Positions 1 to 14,502 of a stretch of DNA of 22,348 nt are shown piece after piece; position 1 is the stretch's first letter; the number at the start of each line of letters is the position of its first letter. The notes beneath the pieces were generated by a model. The model saw nothing but the letters and a program-made list of their open reading frames with translations, was not told where the DNA came from and did not search any database. This stretch comes from a virus. The translations under genes were made by a program, and so were the position numbers. The stretch is taken from positions 1 to 22,348 of IMG/VR virus record IMGVR_UViG_3300025423_000097. One strand, 5' to 3'.

Positions 1-105
1 AAAAATTTTGACGAGTACCAAAAACTCTGTGGGGTGATCCAAGGTCTAGCCATTGCAGAGCGTTATGTTATTGATCTTGCGGAAAAGGTAGACAAAGATG
101 AGTGA
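1..105 (+). CDS. 3' end of an unknown phage protein (partial)
   Basis: An open frame enters from the left edge and ends at TGA 103-105, giving 34 visible residues (KNFDEYQKLCGVIQGLAIAE at the start). The stretch looks helical and charged (LAEKVDKDE at the end). Its stop overlaps the ATG of the co-chaperonin gene at 98, which implies co-translation. In phages of this layout portal and terminase genes lie upstream, but the visible residues identify neither. The function is unknown; only the existence of a coding frame is well supported. Confidence 0.7.
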   Translation, partial: KNFDEYQKLCGVIQGLAIAERYVIDLAEKVDKDE

Positions 106-535
106 TTTAATTCTCCCTCCAGGCGTGCAAATGCCTGAAACCATCCAACCTATTGATAGCCCAGTAGAGGATGCAACAGATGAGCAAAAGGCTACAGCGC
201 TACCAGACCCAGTTGGTTACAAAATACTTTGCGGCGTACCACAGGTATCCGATAAGTTAGATGGAACCGAGCTTGATTTGGTTAGACCCTCCGACTTTGC
301 AAAGCAAGAACAAAGCGCCACAACCGTTTTGTTTGTATTGAAAGTAGGACCTGACGCATACCAAGATAAAGAAAGATACCCAAATGGACCCTGGTGCAAA
401 CCTGGCGATTTCATTTTGACTCGGACTTATTCTGGTACTCGTTTCATGATTTTTGGCAAAGAGTTTAGGCTCATTAACGAAGATCAAGTAGATGCAGTTG
501 TGCAAGATCCACGCGGTATTACCCGTGCTATGTAA
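98..535 (+). CDS. GroES-like co-chaperonin (Hsp10 fold)
   Basis: 145 residues. The first ~36 are acidic and Pro-rich and probably unstructured. From P38 the protein follows the GroES plan: an opening strand (VGYKIL, 39-44), a loop with hydrophobic residues where GroES has its GroEL-binding mobile loop (ELDLVRP, 58-64), the strand VLFVLKVGP (77-85), then WCKPGDFI (99-106), and a closing stretch with EFRLINEDQVDAVV (122-135). In GroES the equivalent parts are 'GEVLAVG', 'VKVGDIV' and 'ESDILAIV'. Co-chaperonins of this kind cap the GroEL folding chamber; phage T4 gp31 replaces GroES so that its capsid protein can fold. Location just before the scaffold and capsid genes fits that role. No GroEL gene is visible, so it would work with the host chaperonin. 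The fold call is from motif order by eye; the capsid role is inference. Confidence 0.78.
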   Translation: MSDLILPPGVQMPETIQPIDSPVEDATDEQKATALPDPVGYKILCGVPQVSDKLDGTELDLVRPSDFAKQEQSATTVLFVLKVGPDAYQDKERYPNGPWCKPGDFILTRTYSGTRFMIFGKEFRLINEDQVDAVVQDPRGITRAM

Positions 536-2850: not shown

Positions 2851-3753
2851 ATGGCTATTTCACGCGCACAACTACTGAAAGAGTTGCTCCCTGGATTGAA
2901 CGCATTGTTCGGTTTAGAGTATGCCCGTTACGGCGAAGAGCATAAAGAAATCTACGAAACAGAGAAATCTGAGCGTAGCTTTGAAGAAGAAACCAAGCTG
3001 TCTGGCTTCTCAGCCGCACCAGTCAAAAACGAGGGTCAATCCCTTGCTTATGACAATGCGCAAGAAGCATTCACAGCACGTTATAACCACGAGACTATTG
3101 CTCTTGGATTCTCAATCACTGAAGAAGCGATTGAAGATAACTTGTATGACTCTTTGTCAGCACGTTATACCAAGGGTCTAGCTCGCGCTATGGCGTATAC
3201 CAAGCAGGTTAAAGCCGCTTCAACTTTGAACAACGCATTTAACAGCCAATACGTTGGCGGTGACGGCGTATCTTTATTGAACAGTGCTCACCCATTGGTT
3301 AACGGTGGTACAAACGCCAACACTCCATCTACTCCTGCTGATTTGAATGAGACATCCCTTGAGAATGCCGTTATTCAAATCGCCGCATGGACAGACGAGC
3401 GTGGACTTTTGATTGCCGCACGTCCCAAGAAATTGATTGTTCCCCCAGCACTCATGTTCGTTGCTACTCGTCTATTAGACACAGAGTTGCGCGTTGGTAC
3501 TAACAACAACGACTTGAACGCTATCAAGAACAACGGTTCTATCCCAGAAGGTTACACAGTTAACCACTTCTTGACAGCACCTAACGCATGGTTCCTGACC
3601 ACTGACGTTCCTAACGGACTTAAGCACTTTGAGCGCGTGTCCTTACAGAACTCAATGGACGGTGACTTTGATACAGGTAACGTCCGTTACAAATCCCGCG
3701 AGCGTTATAGCTTTGGCTGGTCTGATCCACTAGGAATCTACGGTTCTTATTAA
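2851..3753 (+). CDS. Major capsid protein (Mu gpT-like)
   Basis: 300 residues. The first part, rich in Glu and Lys (ALFGLEYARYGEEHKEIYET), leads to a helix-rich core with ALGFSITEEAIEDNLYDSLS (about 93-112) and the phrase LLNSAHPLVNGG (about 141-152), then PKKLIVPPALMFVATRLLDT and a C-terminal DTGNVRYKSRERYSFGW. This order of motifs is that of the Mu-like major head subunit gpT family, which takes the HK97 fold. Length is normal for a protein without a long N-terminal delta domain; scaffolding is instead supplied by the gene at 545. Strong ribosome site AAGGAG. It is the last gene before the terminator at 3782. The family call is by eye but I am confident. Confidence 0.85.
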   Translation: MAISRAQLLKELLPGLNALFGLEYARYGEEHKEIYETEKSERSFEEETKLSGFSAAPVKNEGQSLAYDNAQEAFTARYNHETIALGFSITEEAIEDNLYDSLSARYTKGLARAMAYTKQVKAASTLNNAFNSQYVGGDGVSLLNSAHPLVNGGTNANTPSTPADLNETSLENAVIQIAAWTDERGLLIAARPKKLIVPPALMFVATRLLDTELRVGTNNNDLNAIKNNGSIPEGYTVNHFLTAPNAWFLTTDVPNGLKHFERVSLQNSMDGDFDTGNVRYKSRERYSFGWSDPLGIYGSY

Positions 3754-4715: not shown

Positions 4716-7265
4716 ATGGGTTTGAATCTGTTTAATTTTTTCTCGCCTAATAACCAAACGGCTAGTATGGGGACACAAACCCCCAGCACCGCTTGGCAAG
4801 GTATTGACGGGGCCGCTGAGTTTGTAGCGCCCCAGCGTTTGCGTGATGTTGTTGGTAAGTTAAAAGTTAGCCAATCGCAAAATATTTATGATGCCGACTT
4901 TGAATACGGCGTACAACCTTTGCGTTGGGAAAACTTTATTCAGAATACATCTGGACAAGCTTACATTGTTCAGAATCCTGGTTTGGGTGGCGTATCAATG
5001 AACATTGGTGGAGGTAATACTCCTGGTGATATTACGATTCGTCAAAGCCGTCCTTATCACAGATACCAGCCAGGTAAGACTTTTTACATGGCATCTAACG
5101 TTAACTTTGGTAGTTCTGTTACTGGCCAAACTCAACGTGTTGGTATTTTTGATGATTCCAATGGTATTTTCTTTATGCAGACTGGGCCTACTGGACCTCT
5201 AAATCCAGGAGCTATGTATGTAGTTATTCGTTCTGACTCTGGAAGTAATGGCGTAGTTGATCAGATTATTCCTTGCGAGGCATGGAACGGTAATAAGAAT
5301 ATTATCTATGCACTTGATTGGACTAAAGTTCAAATGATATGGATGGAATATGCTTGGTACGGCGCAGGTGCTCTTCGTTGGGGCGTAGTCCTTAATGGCG
5401 AGCCTTGGGTATTGCATCAAGTTGGTACTGGTAATGGTGTTATTAACGGCGTTGCTCAAGTTAAGCCTTGGAGCCGTACTGGTAACTTGCCTGTTCGTTA
5501 TGAGCAAAGAGATAACGGAAGTAGTACAGCATCATTAATGACTCACTATGGTGTGTCAGTATTGATTGAAGGATCAATTGATAAACAGCGTGGATTTACC
5601 TATTCATATGGTAATGATGCTAAAACTCAAAACCGTTCAGTTCCTGCATCTTCTGTTCGCTATCCTGCAATGTCATTTAGGATGAGAGCTGTTGGTTCTG
5701 ATATTTTTGATCAAAGCAATGCGGCGGCTACGGGTGGATCACCTACGACTTTGACAATTAGCGCGGCTACTCCTTCTATATCTTCTGTAGTAGGACAGCC
5801 AAACAGTGGTCAGGCTTTGGTTACATTTGGTTCTGCTCATGGTTATGCAGTGACTAACCCAGCCAATGCTAATAGCCCAGCTCAGTACATTACTCTTAGT
5901 TCATTTACTGAAGTAGGTACTGTTGCAACTGGAAACTACGCATTCTCTGGAACAACTTTAACAGTTACAACTGCTGTAGCTACTGGAGCTCTTCAAGTTG
6001 GACAAATATTGTCAGGAACTGGTGTTACAGGTTCTCCAACCATTGTTGCTCAATTGACTGCTACAAGTTCTGCTGTGGGTTCACAAGCTTTTGCAAGCGG
6101 TGGCGCAGTTGGATCAAGTGTTGTTGTATTGGCGGCTGGTACATCGTTTGCAGTAGGCCAGTTGTTTGCGGGTACAGGCGTACCAACAGCAACGTACATT
6201 ACTGCGGTTAATGGCGCTACCATTACGATTAATAAGGCATTTACAGCTCAAGCATCTGGCACATATAACTCATATGCACCTGGTGGACTGGGTACTTATC
6301 AAGTTAGCTCTGCACAAACTACTGGTACTGGCACTTTGACCGCCACAACCACATATGCCGCTCAGACTTGGTTAATTCAGCAAGTGCCATCTACAACCAC
6401 AATGATTCTTCCAATTCAATTGTTGACAGGTGTAACAGCCACAACAAATCCAACTGGAACATATTGGGGTGCAAATCAGTGGGTTGGTAAGTTTGTTTAT
6501 TACCAGGCCAGTTTGCCATCTATCAGCGCCATTTCAAATCCTGCATCTGGAACTGTAGCTGGTATTACAAACTACACATCTACAATTACATTTAGCTCTG
6601 TTCATAATTTGAAACAGGGTGATGTAATTATTATTAGCGGATCAACTCCTGCTTACATGAATGGTATTTACTCTGTAACAATACCAACTACAAATCCAAC
6701 TACTACAATTGTGGTTAGCTGGGGTTACTTTGCTTCTGCTCCTGCAAACTATACATCTGGAGCATCTGCTGTATCTCCATACACAGGCCGTATTACATCT
6801 AATACAACCAGTGCAATAACATTTGGTGATGTTGTTACGGGTTTACCATTAGCAAATAGTCCATCATCTGGAAATAACTATCAAATTGGTTTGATTGATC
6901 GCGGTCAATTATTGCCTGCAACATTGTTATTAAATTCATCTGCAACTTGTTTGGTTGAGTTAATTTCAAGTACGCCTACTAACCAATTGTCTTTAAGTCA
7001 AGCAAACTTTGTTGCACTTAACACATTGGGTTCATATAACTCATTTGCTGAGCAAGATTTAAGTGCTACCACTTTGGCTGGAGGTGAGGTTGTGTATGCA
7101 TTCTCAACTCCTCCTAACGGTTTGCAACAGCTTGATTTAAGCAACTTCTTCCCAGTGCTTACCAACATTAAAGGTAACGTAGCCGACATTTTGACGGTTG
7201 CTGTAACTTCTTCTGCTGGTGCTACTGTTCAAATTAACGTTGTTGCACAAGAGGCGATGGCTTAA
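4716..7265 (+). CDS. Large modular virion protein
   Basis: 849 residues. The N-terminal ~330 residues are a coherent, aromatic-rich domain (PLRWENFIQNTSGQAYIVQN; TFYMASNVNFGSS; VQMIWMEYAWYGAGALRWGV; VRYPAMSFRMRAVG), looking like a jelly-roll or beta-sandwich virion domain. From about 335 to 700 the protein is a chain of low-complexity Ser/Thr/Gly/Ala beta modules, including VGQILSGTGVTGSPTIVAQL (about 425) and VGQLFAGTGVPTATYITAV (about 485). The last ~150 residues return to a mixed, less repetitive domain (QIGLIDRGQLLPATLLLN). Ribosome site TAGGAG. Its stop overlaps the next start (TAATG). It is likely displayed on the particle surface; whether on head or tail cannot be told. Confidence 0.7.
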   Translation: MGLNLFNFFSPNNQTASMGTQTPSTAWQGIDGAAEFVAPQRLRDVVGKLKVSQSQNIYDADFEYGVQPLRWENFIQNTSGQAYIVQNPGLGGVSMNIGGGNTPGDITIRQSRPYHRYQPGKTFYMASNVNFGSSVTGQTQRVGIFDDSNGIFFMQTGPTGPLNPGAMYVVIRSDSGSNGVVDQIIPCEAWNGNKNIIYALDWTKVQMIWMEYAWYGAGALRWGVVLNGEPWVLHQVGTGNGVINGVAQVKPWSRTGNLPVRYEQRDNGSSTASLMTHYGVSVLIEGSIDKQRGFTYSYGNDAKTQNRSVPASSVRYPAMSFRMRAVGSDIFDQSNAAATGGSPTTLTISAATPSISSVVGQPNSGQALVTFGSAHGYAVTNPANANSPAQYITLSSFTEVGTVATGNYAFSGTTLTVTTAVATGALQVGQILSGTGVTGSPTIVAQLTATSSAVGSQAFASGGAVGSSVVVLAAGTSFAVGQLFAGTGVPTATYITAVNGATITINKAFTAQASGTYNSYAPGGLGTYQVSSAQTTGTGTLTATTTYAAQTWLIQQVPSTTTMILPIQLLTGVTATTNPTGTYWGANQWVGKFVYYQASLPSISAISNPASGTVAGITNYTSTITFSSVHNLKQGDVIIISGSTPAYMNGIYSVTIPTTNPTTTIVVSWGYFASAPANYTSGASAVSPYTGRITSNTTSAITFGDVVTGLPLANSPSSGNNYQIGLIDRGQLLPATLLLNSSATCLVELISSTPTNQLSLSQANFVALNTLGSYNSFAEQDLSATTLAGGEVVYAFSTPPNGLQQLDLSNFFPVLTNIKGNVADILTVAVTSSAGATVQINVVAQEAMA

Positions 7266-7552
7266 TGTCTACTCCAGCATGGCAACGCAAAGAGGGTAAA
7301 AACCCAAATGGCGGCTTAAATGCTAAAGGTAGAGCTTCTGCCAAGAAAGAAGGGCATGATCTAAAGCCTCCTCAACCAGAGGGTGGCTCTAGGAAAAAAT
7401 CATTTTGTGCCAGAATGGAAGGTATGAAGAAAAAGTTAACTTCAGAAAAGACAGCGCATGATCCTAATAGCCGCATTAACAAAAGCTTGAGGGTTTGGAA
7501 ATGTGCTGATGGATGTGCAATTCGTGGTCTTACAAAAGGCACAATGAGGTAA
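7265..7552 (+). CDS. DUF6321-type small basic protein
   Basis: 95 residues. It starts MSTPAWQRKEGKNPNGGLNA and continues with EGGSRKKSFCARMEGMKKKL and DPNSRINKSLRVWK, the pattern I associate with DUF6321 proteins of phages. The usual family sequence seems to end near KSLRVW; here a tail CADGCAIRGLTKGTMR (80-95) follows. That tail matches the C-termini of the proteins at 8474 and 8681. Highly basic, with Cys in the middle and two in the tail; no membrane segment. Translational coupling to the gene before is indicated by TAATG. Function unknown; a nucleic-acid-binding or virion role is only a guess from charge and position. Confidence 0.75.
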   Translation: MSTPAWQRKEGKNPNGGLNAKGRASAKKEGHDLKPPQPEGGSRKKSFCARMEGMKKKLTSEKTAHDPNSRINKSLRVWKCADGCAIRGLTKGTMR

Positions 7553-7744: not shown

Positions 7745-8227
7745 ATGCCAAGTAAATCAAAAGCACAACATAATTTCATGGAGGCGGTGGCCCACAATCC
7801 AGCGTTCGCCAAGAAAGTGGGAGTCCCGCGTAGTGTGGGGCAGGAGTTCAGTAAAGCGGACACAGGCCGCACATTTAAAAGAGGTGGAGAAATGAAAGAT
7901 CACGAAGCTCACGGGCATCATATGAAAATGGCTCATCATCATTTGCAAATGGCGATGAAACACGGCGGTCACGTCAAAAAAATGGCATCTGGTGGATCAA
8001 CTACTGGTATGCATGGTATTGAAGAGAAAAAAGGCATGACTACAGCCAAGATGAGCAAAGTTACTGAGGGCGGTAGAAAACCACACGGCGAGCACTCTGT
8101 TGAGAAAAAAGGCGCTACAAAAGCTATGATGCCTAAGATGAAGGGCAACACAGTTGGCGATGGACCTTTGTATAACGTTAAAGGCCCAGCTATGAAGCGT
8201 GGCGGTAAAACTCATCACAAGAAATAA
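7745..8227 (+). CDS. Small basic Met/His/Lys-rich protein ('MPSKSKAQHNF' type)
   Basis: 160 residues. The N-terminal ~44 residues (MPSKSKAQHNFMEAVAHNPA, FAKKVGVPRSVGQEF, ADTGRTF) are a conserved head seen in many phage proteins of unknown function. The rest is low-complexity: a His/Met run (HEAHGHHMKMAHHHLQMAMK, about 54-73), glycine-pair motifs (FKRGGEM, KHGGHVKK, MASGG, MKRGGK) and a basic end (THHKK). It appears disordered or metal-binding, with no membrane segment. It opens the run of KKGG-type genes; a 15-base stretch in it (7964-7978) recurs exactly in the gene at 8474. Function unknown. Confidence 0.75.
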   Translation: MPSKSKAQHNFMEAVAHNPAFAKKVGVPRSVGQEFSKADTGRTFKRGGEMKDHEAHGHHMKMAHHHLQMAMKHGGHVKKMASGGSTTGMHGIEEKKGMTTAKMSKVTEGGRKPHGEHSVEKKGATKAMMPKMKGNTVGDGPLYNVKGPAMKRGGKTHHKK

Positions 8228-8236
8228 GGACTAAAA

Positions 8237-8470
8237 ATGTCACATCATCCAGAGCACCACAAGCACGTCCATCCTGCTGGTCATGAGCATCATCATGAGC
8301 ACAAGCACGCAGTTCACCATTTAAAAGAGCATGAGGAAGGTGGACATAAACACCATCATCATCATTATGGTGAGCACGCCGCTGGACATACTAAGCATCA
8401 TGAAACTGTAGAGCACTTGCATAAGCATCAAGCTTATAAGCATGGTGGTCATGTACATCACAAAGGATAA
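8237..8470 (+). CDS. Extremely histidine-rich small protein
   Basis: 77 residues, of which 32 are His, arranged as HH, HHH and HHHHH clusters spaced by Glu, Lys and Gly (HEHHHEHKHAVHH, 16-28; GHKHHHHHYGEH, 36-47). It has no Cys and no membrane segment. It ends KHGGHVHHKG, resembling the GGHVKG end of its neighbour at 8474. Ribosome site AAGGAC. Such density of His would bind Ni, Zn or Cu in vitro and would make charge pH-dependent; the biological role is unknown. A coding origin is supported by a clean start, tight spacing (9 bases after the previous stop, 3 before the next start) and similarity of end motifs to neighbours. Confidence 0.75.
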   Translation: MSHHPEHHKHVHPAGHEHHHEHKHAVHHLKEHEEGGHKHHHHHYGEHAAGHTKHHETVEHLHKHQAYKHGGHVHHKG

Positions 8471-8473
8471 ATC

Positions 8474-8677
8474 ATGCCAATGCCACAAATGACTATACGT
8501 CCTCCTATGGCTGGAAAGATGCCTGTTAGACCAGGAATGGCGGCGGCTCGTCCAGGAGGTATGATGAAAAAAGGTGGTATGGCTCATCGCTGTCACGAAC
8601 GTGCTGATGGTTGCGCTGAAAAAGGGCACACCAAAGGCAAAATTGTGATGTGTGGTGGCGGTCACGTCAAAGGATAA
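8474..8677 (+). CDS. Small Met/Pro/Gly-rich protein with 'ADGC' C-terminal motif
   Basis: 67 residues. The N-terminal third is Met/Pro/Arg-rich (MPMPQMTIRPPMAGKMPVRP), then a KKGG motif (MMKKGGMAH, 30-38), then RADGCAEKGHTKGK (43-56) and a short Cys/His/Gly tail (CGGGHVKG). Cys40, Cys47 and Cys60 together with His38, His41, His52 and His64 could make a metal site, though no standard zinc-finger spacing is present. Ribosome site AAAGGA, lying within the end of the preceding gene. Function unknown. Confidence 0.7.
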   Translation: MPMPQMTIRPPMAGKMPVRPGMAAARPGGMMKKGGMAHRCHERADGCAEKGHTKGKIVMCGGGHVKG

Positions 8678-8680
8678 ATC

Positions 8681-8956
8681 ATGGCTACAAAAGATGCTGG
8701 AGCTGGTAGAGGCTTTGTAAATCCTCAACGCACTGACGAATCAGATGCAGATTATGTTTCACCTAAAGATCGTTACGATATGGAAAAACAACGTAACGAA
8801 CAAAAAACCCAAGAGAAGACCAATACTGCCGCACAAGAGGCTAGTAAAAACATGAAAAAGGGTGGCAAGGTTAAGCATAAAATGTCTAAGGGCGGTGCAT
8901 CACACCGTGCAGACGGTTGCATTGAACGCGGCCATACCAAAGGACATATGCGATGA
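8681..8956 (+). CDS. Small charged protein with KKGG and 'ADGC' motifs
   Basis: 91 residues. The first ~55 are hydrophilic and probably helical (DYVSPKDRYDMEKQRNEQKT), followed by NMKKGGKVKHKMSKGG (about 57-72) and the C-terminal HRADGCIERGHTKGHMR (75-91). The same tail ends the proteins at 7265 and, with an extension, at 8474. The start context is CAAAGGATAAATCATG, identical over 16 bases to that of the gene at 8474. Its stop overlaps the next start (ATGA). Function unknown. Confidence 0.7.
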   Translation: MATKDAGAGRGFVNPQRTDESDADYVSPKDRYDMEKQRNEQKTQEKTNTAAQEASKNMKKGGKVKHKMSKGGASHRADGCIERGHTKGHMR

Positions 8957-11028: not shown

Positions 11029-11340
11029 ATGAAGACAATGGTTAAACCAACCAAAAAGAATAGCCCATCTATTCACAGGGCAAAAGATGTTCACAATGGT
11101 AACGCTGATGAATATTCCCGTCCTCACACAATGAGCGGCAAAAACATTAGTCCCAAGACTGATTCTTTTGTTCATACAGACCCTAATACGCTTAATGCGA
11201 AACAACAAGGCCGTTTGACAGGTACATTGCGCGTTAGCATGGGTGATCCTGGTGCTAATGATGTTAAGACTGATGGTATTAAGATGCGTGGAGCTGGAGC
11301 GGCTGAGCGTGGCTTTATGTCCAGAGGCCCAATGGCATGA
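11029..11340 (+). CDS. Small basic protein with 'DGIKMRG' C-terminus
   Basis: 103 residues; strong ribosome site GGAGG. Low in hydrophobics, rich in Lys, Asn, Gly. The last 24 residues (KTDGIKMRGAGAAERG, then FMSRGPMA) are a phrase I recognise from other aquatic phage proteins and resemble a Cys-less variant of the 'ADGCxxRGxTKG' ending. The stop overlaps the adaptor start (ATGA). Function unknown; its fixed place just before the adaptor gene suggests a virion role. Confidence 0.7.
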   Translation: MKTMVKPTKKNSPSIHRAKDVHNGNADEYSRPHTMSGKNISPKTDSFVHTDPNTLNAKQQGRLTGTLRVSMGDPGANDVKTDGIKMRGAGAAERGFMSRGPMA

Positions 11341-12449
11341 GTTTAGATTACTCTCAGCTTTCTCAGTCAATACAGGACTATCTACAGAACTACGAAACCA
11401 CTTTCGTAGCGGATATTCCTACGTTTGTTGAGCAAGCTGAGCAAAGAATCTATAACACGGTTCAATTTCCATCTTTGCGTAAGAATGTTACGGGCGTTTT
11501 GACGGCTTATAACCCATATTTAGCTTGCCCTACAGACTTTCTTGCGCCGTATTCTTTAGCTGTTTATACGACTGCATCTGCTACTGCAACTGGCACTGCT
11601 GGTACATATACAATTACTACATCAGGAACTGTTACAGGTAACATCCAGATTGGACAATATGTGACTGGAACAGGTATAGGTTCTAGTGCTTATGTCACAT
11701 CGGTATCTGGAACTACGGTTTATTTATCTGTGGTTAATGCTAACAATGTTAGCGGCACAATTAATTTCCAAGGGCAGTATAACTACTTGCTTAATAAAGA
11801 TGTTAACTATATGCGTGAGGCATTTCCATTGCCTAATTATTACGCTACGCCAGGATATTACGCGCTTTTTGGGCCGTCTGTGGTAAGTTCAGCGCTTACA
11901 AATAATCTATCATTTATTGTTGGTCCTACGCCTGATATTGGGTATAGTGCAGAGATGCATTATTACTATTATCCTGTTTCTATTGTGCAATCTGCTGTTA
12001 ATGTAACTAGCATTTACACGGCTGGATCGGGATATACAAATGGTACATATTACAACACAGCTTTAACAGGCGGTACTGGAAGTGGTGCAAAGGCTGATAT
12101 TGTTGTATCTGGAGGGGCTGTAACATCGGTCACAATGAGTACAAATGGGTCTTATTTTGCTGTAAATGACTTGTTATCAGCATCTATTCCAGGTGGTACA
12201 GGATTCCAATTGCAAGTTAGTTCGGTAAATAACCCAACGGGAACAAGCTGGCTGGGTCAGAATTTTGATTCTGTTTTACTATATGGTTCACTTGTAGAGG
12301 CATATACGTTTATCAAGGGAGAGCCTGATTTGATAGCTCTTTACGATAAAAAGTATAACGAAGCATTGGCAATTGCAAAACGTCTTGGAGATGGTATGGA
12401 GCGTCAAGATGCATACAGATCGGGACAATATAGACAGGCGGTTACATAA
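11337..12449 (+). CDS. Head-tail adaptor protein (SU10-adaptor-like) with two inserted modules
   Basis: 370 residues. The two ends together make the adaptor fold: N-terminal LDYSQLSQSIQDYLQNYE and IPTFVEQAEQRIYNTVQFPS, the central YLLNKDVNYMREAFP, then NLSFIVGPTPDIGYSAEMHY, and the C-terminal helices VLLYGSLVEAYTFIKGEPDL and YDKKYNEALAIAKRLGDG. Two extra blocks interrupt it: about 84-147 (a module with IQIGQYVTGTGIGSSAYVTS) and about 222-298 (SIYTAGSGYTNGTYY; GAKADIVVSGGAVTSVTMST). Such adaptors attach to the portal and carry the tail. Overlaps the next start by TAATG. The insert boundaries are by eye. Confidence 0.75.
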   Translation: MSLDYSQLSQSIQDYLQNYETTFVADIPTFVEQAEQRIYNTVQFPSLRKNVTGVLTAYNPYLACPTDFLAPYSLAVYTTASATATGTAGTYTITTSGTVTGNIQIGQYVTGTGIGSSAYVTSVSGTTVYLSVVNANNVSGTINFQGQYNYLLNKDVNYMREAFPLPNYYATPGYYALFGPSVVSSALTNNLSFIVGPTPDIGYSAEMHYYYYPVSIVQSAVNVTSIYTAGSGYTNGTYYNTALTGGTGSGAKADIVVSGGAVTSVTMSTNGSYFAVNDLLSASIPGGTGFQLQVSSVNNPTGTSWLGQNFDSVLLYGSLVEAYTFIKGEPDLIALYDKKYNEALAIAKRLGDGMERQDAYRSGQYRQAVT

Positions 12450-13575: not shown

Positions 13576-14502
13576 ATGGCTCTGCAAGTAGCTGATAGAG
13601 TCCAGGTTAACAGTACATCGTATACGACAAGTAGTTTTACGCTTGGGTCTGCGCTTACTGGTTTTCAAAGTTTTACTGCTTTAACCAGCGGTAATACGAC
13701 CTATTACGCCGCAACGGATACGGTTGGTAACTGGGAGGTGGGCTACGGCACATATACGACTGGCGCTCTTGCCAGGACAACGATACTGGCTTCTAGCAAT
13801 TCTGGATCGGTGGTTACGTTTAGTGGTACGGTTTCTATATTTATTACTTACCCCGCTGAAAAAGTTGTAATACAAGATACAAACGGCAACGTTAATATAT
13901 TAACTTATGTATCTAATGCTACTACTACGATTGGTACGTTAAATGTAGGAACGAGCGGGTATAGTGTTTCTACTACTGGTCAGCTTGCAACTTTTTACGG
14001 CACAGATACCACTTGGTCAAATGTAGTTTTACAGAATAATAATGGTGGAAATACATCTTATGCTTCCTATGTAACTACTGCAAATAACTATTCATCCGTC
14101 TATATGGAGATGGGAACAAACAGTTCCACTTATAGTTATTCAGCGGCGGGATACGGAAATAATGCGGCTAATGCCGCAAACGCTAACTTTGTTGAGTCAG
14201 TTGGTTCCGATTTAGTACTAACAACATATGGTTCAAATGCAATTCATTTTGTTGTCAACTCAGGTAATACGGGCACAACAACTGATTCTTTAACCATTAG
14301 TACGGCTGGTAACGTCACTACGCCCAACCAGTTGCAGGGGGCGGAACTTGTTGCTTCTAATGGTATATTTGTAAATAATTTAACAATAGGAACAAGTTAT
14401 ACAATTCCAACAGGGTATTCTGCTCATTCTGTCGGGCCTGTTACTTTGAGTAATGGCGTTTCAATAACTGTGCCTAGTGGCTCACGTTGGTTGGTGTTCT
14501 AA
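13576..14502 (+). CDS. Fibre-type structural protein with 46-residue tip domain
   Basis: 308 residues. The N-terminus (MALQVADRVQVNSTSYTTSS; TGFQSFTAL; TVGNWEVGYGTYTTGALART; TVSIFITYPAEKVVI) is a module I know from phage tail proteins, probably the part that attaches to the particle. The middle is Asn/Ser/Thr/Gly-rich (NNGGNTSYASYVTTANNYSS). The last 46 residues, with LTIGTSYTIPTGYSAHSVGP and ITVPSGSRW, align without gaps to the end of the protein at 15352 (26 of 46 identical). It is probably a trimeric fibre or fibre-base protein. Confidence 0.68.
   Translation: MALQVADRVQVNSTSYTTSSFTLGSALTGFQSFTALTSGNTTYYAATDTVGNWEVGYGTYTTGALARTTILASSNSGSVVTFSGTVSIFITYPAEKVVIQDTNGNVNILTYVSNATTTIGTLNVGTSGYSVSTTGQLATFYGTDTTWSNVVLQNNNGGNTSYASYVTTANNYSSVYMEMGTNSSTYSYSAAGYGNNAANAANANFVESVGSDLVLTTYGSNAIHFVVNSGNTGTTTDSLTISTAGNVTTPNQLQGAELVASNGIFVNNLTIGTSYTIPTGYSAHSVGPVTLSNGVSITVPSGSRWLVF

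Follow-up and report, generated by a model that had tools for sequence, protein, structure and literature searches.

A viral genome stretch of 22,348 nucleotides (IMG/VR record IMGVR_UViG_3300025423_000097, hereafter the window) carries at positions 98-535 a gene encoding a phage GroES/Cpn10 protein, which most likely acts as a lid for the host GroEL in folding the capsid protein of the same gene block. This functional assignment is supported by Cpn10 homology, the predicted fold, a retained hydrophobic pair in the mobile loop, conserved synteny, an association with one capsid lineage and the precedent of phage T4. That GroES proteins are common in phages is already known. The co-occurrence of this one with a capsid lineage, set against phages that share a related terminase, makes the capsid protein a specific candidate client that can be tested in cultured phages, for example Caulobacter phage RW.

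Sequence and fold of a phage-encoded GroES

The gene begins within its upstream neighbor and ends 9 nt before a putative scaffold gene.

1-105, + strand: 3′ end of an upstream ORF, with its stop codon at 103-105 and an 8-nt overlap with the GroES start
98-535, + strand: GroES/Cpn10-type co-chaperonin gene (ATG start, 145 aa), assigned from PHROG 3188, a profile search of the PDB, fold match and dN/dS

ORF 98-535 is a real gene. Comparison with its three closest relatives (83-90% amino acid identity) gave a dN/dS of ~0.1, the values being restricted to these three as the other relatives are saturated at synonymous sites, and the protein is therefore under purifying selection. Taken as a single sequence, it is only weakly recognizable as GroES. 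The GroES domain occupies residues ~35 to 136, and a direct search with Pfam Cpn10 (PF00166) returned E = 0.0042 and 17.5 bits, below the curated cut-off of 21.1; NCBIfam GroES models scored E values of 0.0006-0.14. PHROG 3188 (co-chaperonin GroES) matched at E = 2.9e-7, and tblastn matched the protein to genes annotated as GroES in eight records of phages, with E values of 2e-17 for HTVC027P and 8e-13 for HTVC023P. It is through its relatives, which link it to genuine GroES proteins, that the protein fits the Cpn10 sequence profile. A profile built from 18 relatives, including pelagiphage and Roseobacter phage members, matched Cpn20 (PDB entry 7ekq, 1.3e-14), bacterial GroES (2.7e-10) and several Cpn10 proteins (~1e-9), and a broader profile of 99 relatives gave the same result. 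Pfam Cpn10 was matched by 15 of the 18 aligned members, the best at 2e-16.

Structural modeling confidently predicts a Cpn10 β-barrel fold. An initial AlphaFold2 model drew on a shallow alignment, with 29 close relatives, and was of poor quality (pLDDT 54). A second model of the monomer, based on 99 diverse relatives with bridging sequences added, reached a pLDDT of 81.7 and pTM of 0.68. Foldseek comparison of this model with the PDB gave an E value of 6.3e-6, and the 30 best matches (E ≤ 0.001) were without exception co-chaperonin chains, followed by T4 gp31 at ranks 31 and 36 (E = 1.2e-3). VIA-align superposition on Thermus thermophilus Cpn10 yielded Z = 9.9 over 84 residues at 3.1 Å, compared with Z = 8.3 over 71 residues at 1.9 Å for gp31 in its GroEL complex and Z = 7.3 over 87 residues at 4.3 Å for free gp31 (1g31), which ranked below bacterial Cpn10. 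The matches unrelated to co-chaperonins were alcohol dehydrogenase and quinone oxidoreductase chains with Z values of 6.9 and less, and these enzymes contain a GroES-like domain. The top viral structure matches of the model were co-chaperonins from uncultured viruses. Overall, the original prediction of a GroES-like co-chaperonin, drawn from the sequence, is borne out by the profiles, by a model that matches Cpn10 and by a mobile loop whose hydrophobic pair is kept in nearly all relatives.

Gene order and the capsid lineage

The co-chaperonin gene opens a conserved block of head-assembly genes.

545-1495, + strand: putative scaffold, 316 aa (PHROG 28737, unknown function; role suggested by position and composition)
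1488-1937, + strand: conserved 149-aa protein of unknown function (317 of 321 eligible loci)
1948-2835, + strand: 295-aa protein, possibly a decoration or cement protein (position kept in 271 of 272 eligible loci)
2851-3753, + strand: major capsid protein and probable client for folding (Pfam Phage_capsid_4, 2e-12; PHROG 371, 5.8e-20; 189 of 190 eligible loci)

A scaffold-like gene lies directly 3′ of GroES in 352 of the 354 loci long enough to be counted, and the remaining order is kept downstream at the frequencies listed. All loci were gathered through their GroES, and the counts therefore describe conserved order, not independence. The block of GroES, putative scaffold, two small genes and capsid is near-universal across several hundred contigs, so the predicted location ahead of scaffold and capsid genes extends to the relatives. 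Annotated genomes that place GroES in this slot include MinM2, DSL-LC04, 023Pt_psg01, CRP-901/902, Caulobacter phage RW and Alcaligenes phage QDWS535, and Roseobacter and cyanobacterial phages also have GroES annotated at that spot, the known relatives occurring in many aquatic phages. Chaperonins in virioplankton were reportedly surveyed by Marine et al. in 2017 (ISME J). One of the 13 core genes reported for HTVC023P-type pelagiphages is a co-chaperonin GroES (PMC9599517), and the published genome figure of CRP-901 shows GroES (PMC10149686). The gene arrangement was thus already known, and the window protein joins a known phage GroES family. Its membership on the freshwater side is probable, judging from the matching collections and freshwater relatives rather than from the record of the window.

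Several other features of the window involve putative structural or small proteins. Between positions 7745 and 8956, small proteins with very high contents of His, Lys, Met and Gly form a run in which KRGG/KHGGH/KKGG motifs recur; one member, at 8237-8470, is a 77-aa protein with 42% His. The N-terminus of the first protein of the run matches virion-structural PHROGs, and the next three are without any match. Three small ORFs (7265-7552, 8474-8677 and 8681-8956) have a common C-terminal motif, ~ADGC(A/I)xxRG(L)TKG, which suggests either that small proteins were duplicated or that they have a binding tail in common. Structural proteins at 4716-7265 and 11337-12449 contain low-complexity G/S/T-rich stretches, the latter overlapping tail-fibre and baseplate PHROG matches.

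With the capsid protein of the window as query, 21 phage records were matched. We searched 15 distinct records with a related capsid (26-71% identity) in their entirety for Cpn10 and Cpn60. Each of the 15 encodes exactly one Cpn10, at capsid identities down to 26%, and none encodes a Cpn60. In contrast, Cpn10 was absent from all 11 phages, Pam1 included, that possess a related terminase and no detectable related capsid, a set that is small and not random, having been chosen by terminase similarity. The co-chaperonin is therefore tied to the capsid lineage, not to the packaging motor. Consistent with the predicted lack of an accompanying GroEL, no Cpn60 was found across 25 related records; the window itself covers a 22 kb virus fragment.

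Two distant genomes, ct7ZZ929 and vir526, have no GroES in the portal-to-capsid stretch and were expected to be without one, but a genome-wide search located one elsewhere in each, a placement that counts against the reading as a lid for capsid folding. In ct7ZZ929 (MW202601.1), the Cpn10 match at 13798-14013 lies ~24 kb from the capsid gene and covers profile positions 6-68 only. In vir526 (BK063670.1), which is assigned to Methanomicrobiales, Cpn10 is found at 42883-43134, just upstream of the terminase; this genome also encodes a distant relative of the window capsid protein and has no Cpn60.

Gene position and co-occurrence point to the capsid protein as the probable client, with the proviso that genes of one block co-occur by linkage. 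A general-purpose GroES that raises the overall folding capacity of the host, serving in stress or as an auxiliary gene without the capsid as its particular client, would also agree with the near-normal anatomy and full roof segment of the protein, and some phages, such as siphovirus B8b, do carry GroES elsewhere (PMC4294664). Nonetheless, we consider this role unlikely, given a position before scaffold and capsid that is fixed in hundreds of contigs and an association with one capsid lineage that does not extend to related terminases.

Mobile loop, roof and appendages

Alignment and modeling divide the protein into a GroES core and two terminal additions.

98-205, + strand: N-terminal arm, residues ~1-36, net acidic, of variable length among relatives and outside the GroES fold
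245-289, + strand: mobile loop, residues ~50-64, located by alignment to the Mycobacterium tuberculosis Cpn10 loop and a low-confidence stretch in the model
347-406, + strand: roof segment G84-G103, full length, with near-invariant Y88, D90, P95, G97 and C100
506-529, + strand: C-terminal tail DPRGITRA, conserved, past the GroES C-terminal strand

Residues L61, V62 and R63 (278-286) align with IVL, the GroEL-binding tripeptide of GroES. Of the 99 relatives, 98 have a hydrophobic pair at the first two positions. At the third, 81 of the 99 carry Lys or Arg, the window protein with its Arg included, and the other 18 a hydrophobic residue; many of these 18 lie near DSL-LC04 and possess a GGIVL-like loop. 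Arg at this position could weaken GroEL binding, a point against the lid reading. The stretch from P38 to G84, with the mobile loop inside, spans 46 residues versus 43 in most relatives and includes a four-residue family insertion relative to M. tuberculosis Cpn10, while the roof segment is 19 residues long in 95 of 99 relatives, approximately its length in M. tuberculosis Cpn10. The N-terminal arm of ~35 residues has six more acidic than basic residues, and model confidence is lower here (pLDDT 66-72 over residues 1-30). Among relatives the arm ranges from 10 to 61 residues and is mostly net acidic; its changing length identifies it as a variable appendage. Both the acidic arm and the longer middle that had been anticipated are therefore present. 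In the tail, P138 is found in 98 of 99 relatives and DPRG in 84.

These features bear on whether the protein still engages GroEL. The LVR tripeptide, with Lys or Arg so prevalent at its third position, together with the added arm and conserved tail, could be taken to mean that a GroES fold no longer binds GroEL and instead functions directly in the virion or during head assembly. However, near-complete retention of the loop hydrophobic pair and the canonical GGIVL loop of marine relatives at the same gene position make such a change of function very improbable. Chance resemblance or a misread ORF can be dismissed: the sub-threshold direct Pfam score and the poor first model from a shallow alignment are the points in its favor, whereas GroES is indicated alike by the profiles, the fold, sequence conservation and dN/dS.

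Proposed role and comparison with known chaperonins

As a lid for host GroEL, the phage GroES would form a heptameric ring whose mobile loop docks on the host chaperonin, displacing host GroES from its role. The capsid protein would then fold in the chamber closed by the phage lid and subsequently assemble on the scaffold. The altered loop tripeptide, N-terminal arm and conserved C-terminal tail are candidate adaptations beyond host GroES. Precedent for such folding comes from T4, in which gp31 and host GroEL fold gp23 and GroES cannot substitute for gp31 (PMC3012670). In the literature we found no experimental work on this phage GroES family and no demonstration of a client for a phage GroES outside the T4 group. 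A more speculative proposal, which we put forward tentatively, is that the protein is the obligate partner of one capsid lineage across phages of many hosts, a virus assigned to methanogens among them, and that most of the branch rebuilt the tripeptide as hydrophobic-hydrophobic-Lys/Arg, by which it would outcompete host GroES, or retune it, for that single client.

The closest known counterparts are the HTVC023P-type GroES proteins (HTVC023P, HTVC027P, DSL-LC04, MinM2 and CRP-901/902), which are homologous, occupy the same slot and likewise occur without a phage GroEL. Their identity to the window protein is 24-44%, and the window protein differs in a few extra loop residues and in its LVR tripeptide, compared with the GIVL type of marine members. 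Bacterial GroES/Cpn10 shares the β-barrel fold, mobile loop, roof segment and C-terminal strand at ~20% identity. In contrast to the bacterial proteins, the window protein is phage-encoded, probably without a GroEL, and adds the N-terminal arm, a longer post-loop segment and the C-terminal tail.

T4 gp31 and RB49 CocO are similarly phage-encoded co-chaperonins without a phage GroEL and with a probable capsid client. The weak resemblance to gp31 remarked on originally is matched by its distant fold ranking, and gp31 was not found by the family profile search even at E ≤ 10, so that the sequences give no support for gp31 as a direct ancestor or near relative. The roof of gp31 is reduced or missing and T4 gene 31 lies outside the capsid block, whereas the window protein keeps a full-length roof and its gene lies inside the block. 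Given the constant roof length in the family, neither a gp31-type roof reduction nor the larger folding chamber of gp31 (PMC3012670) is visible here. The likeness to gp31 is functional only, and the window protein is closer to ordinary GroES. The gp31 strategy invoked in the original prediction accordingly holds as a functional comparison; the arrangement had already been described (PMC9599517 and annotated genomes), and the roof is retained, unlike that of gp31. The chaperonins of phages EL, OBP and AR9 also represent phage-encoded folding machinery, but they are Cpn60 proteins of the GroEL type, those of EL and OBP operating without a co-chaperonin (PMC5934643), whereas the window protein is a Cpn10, probably without a Cpn60.
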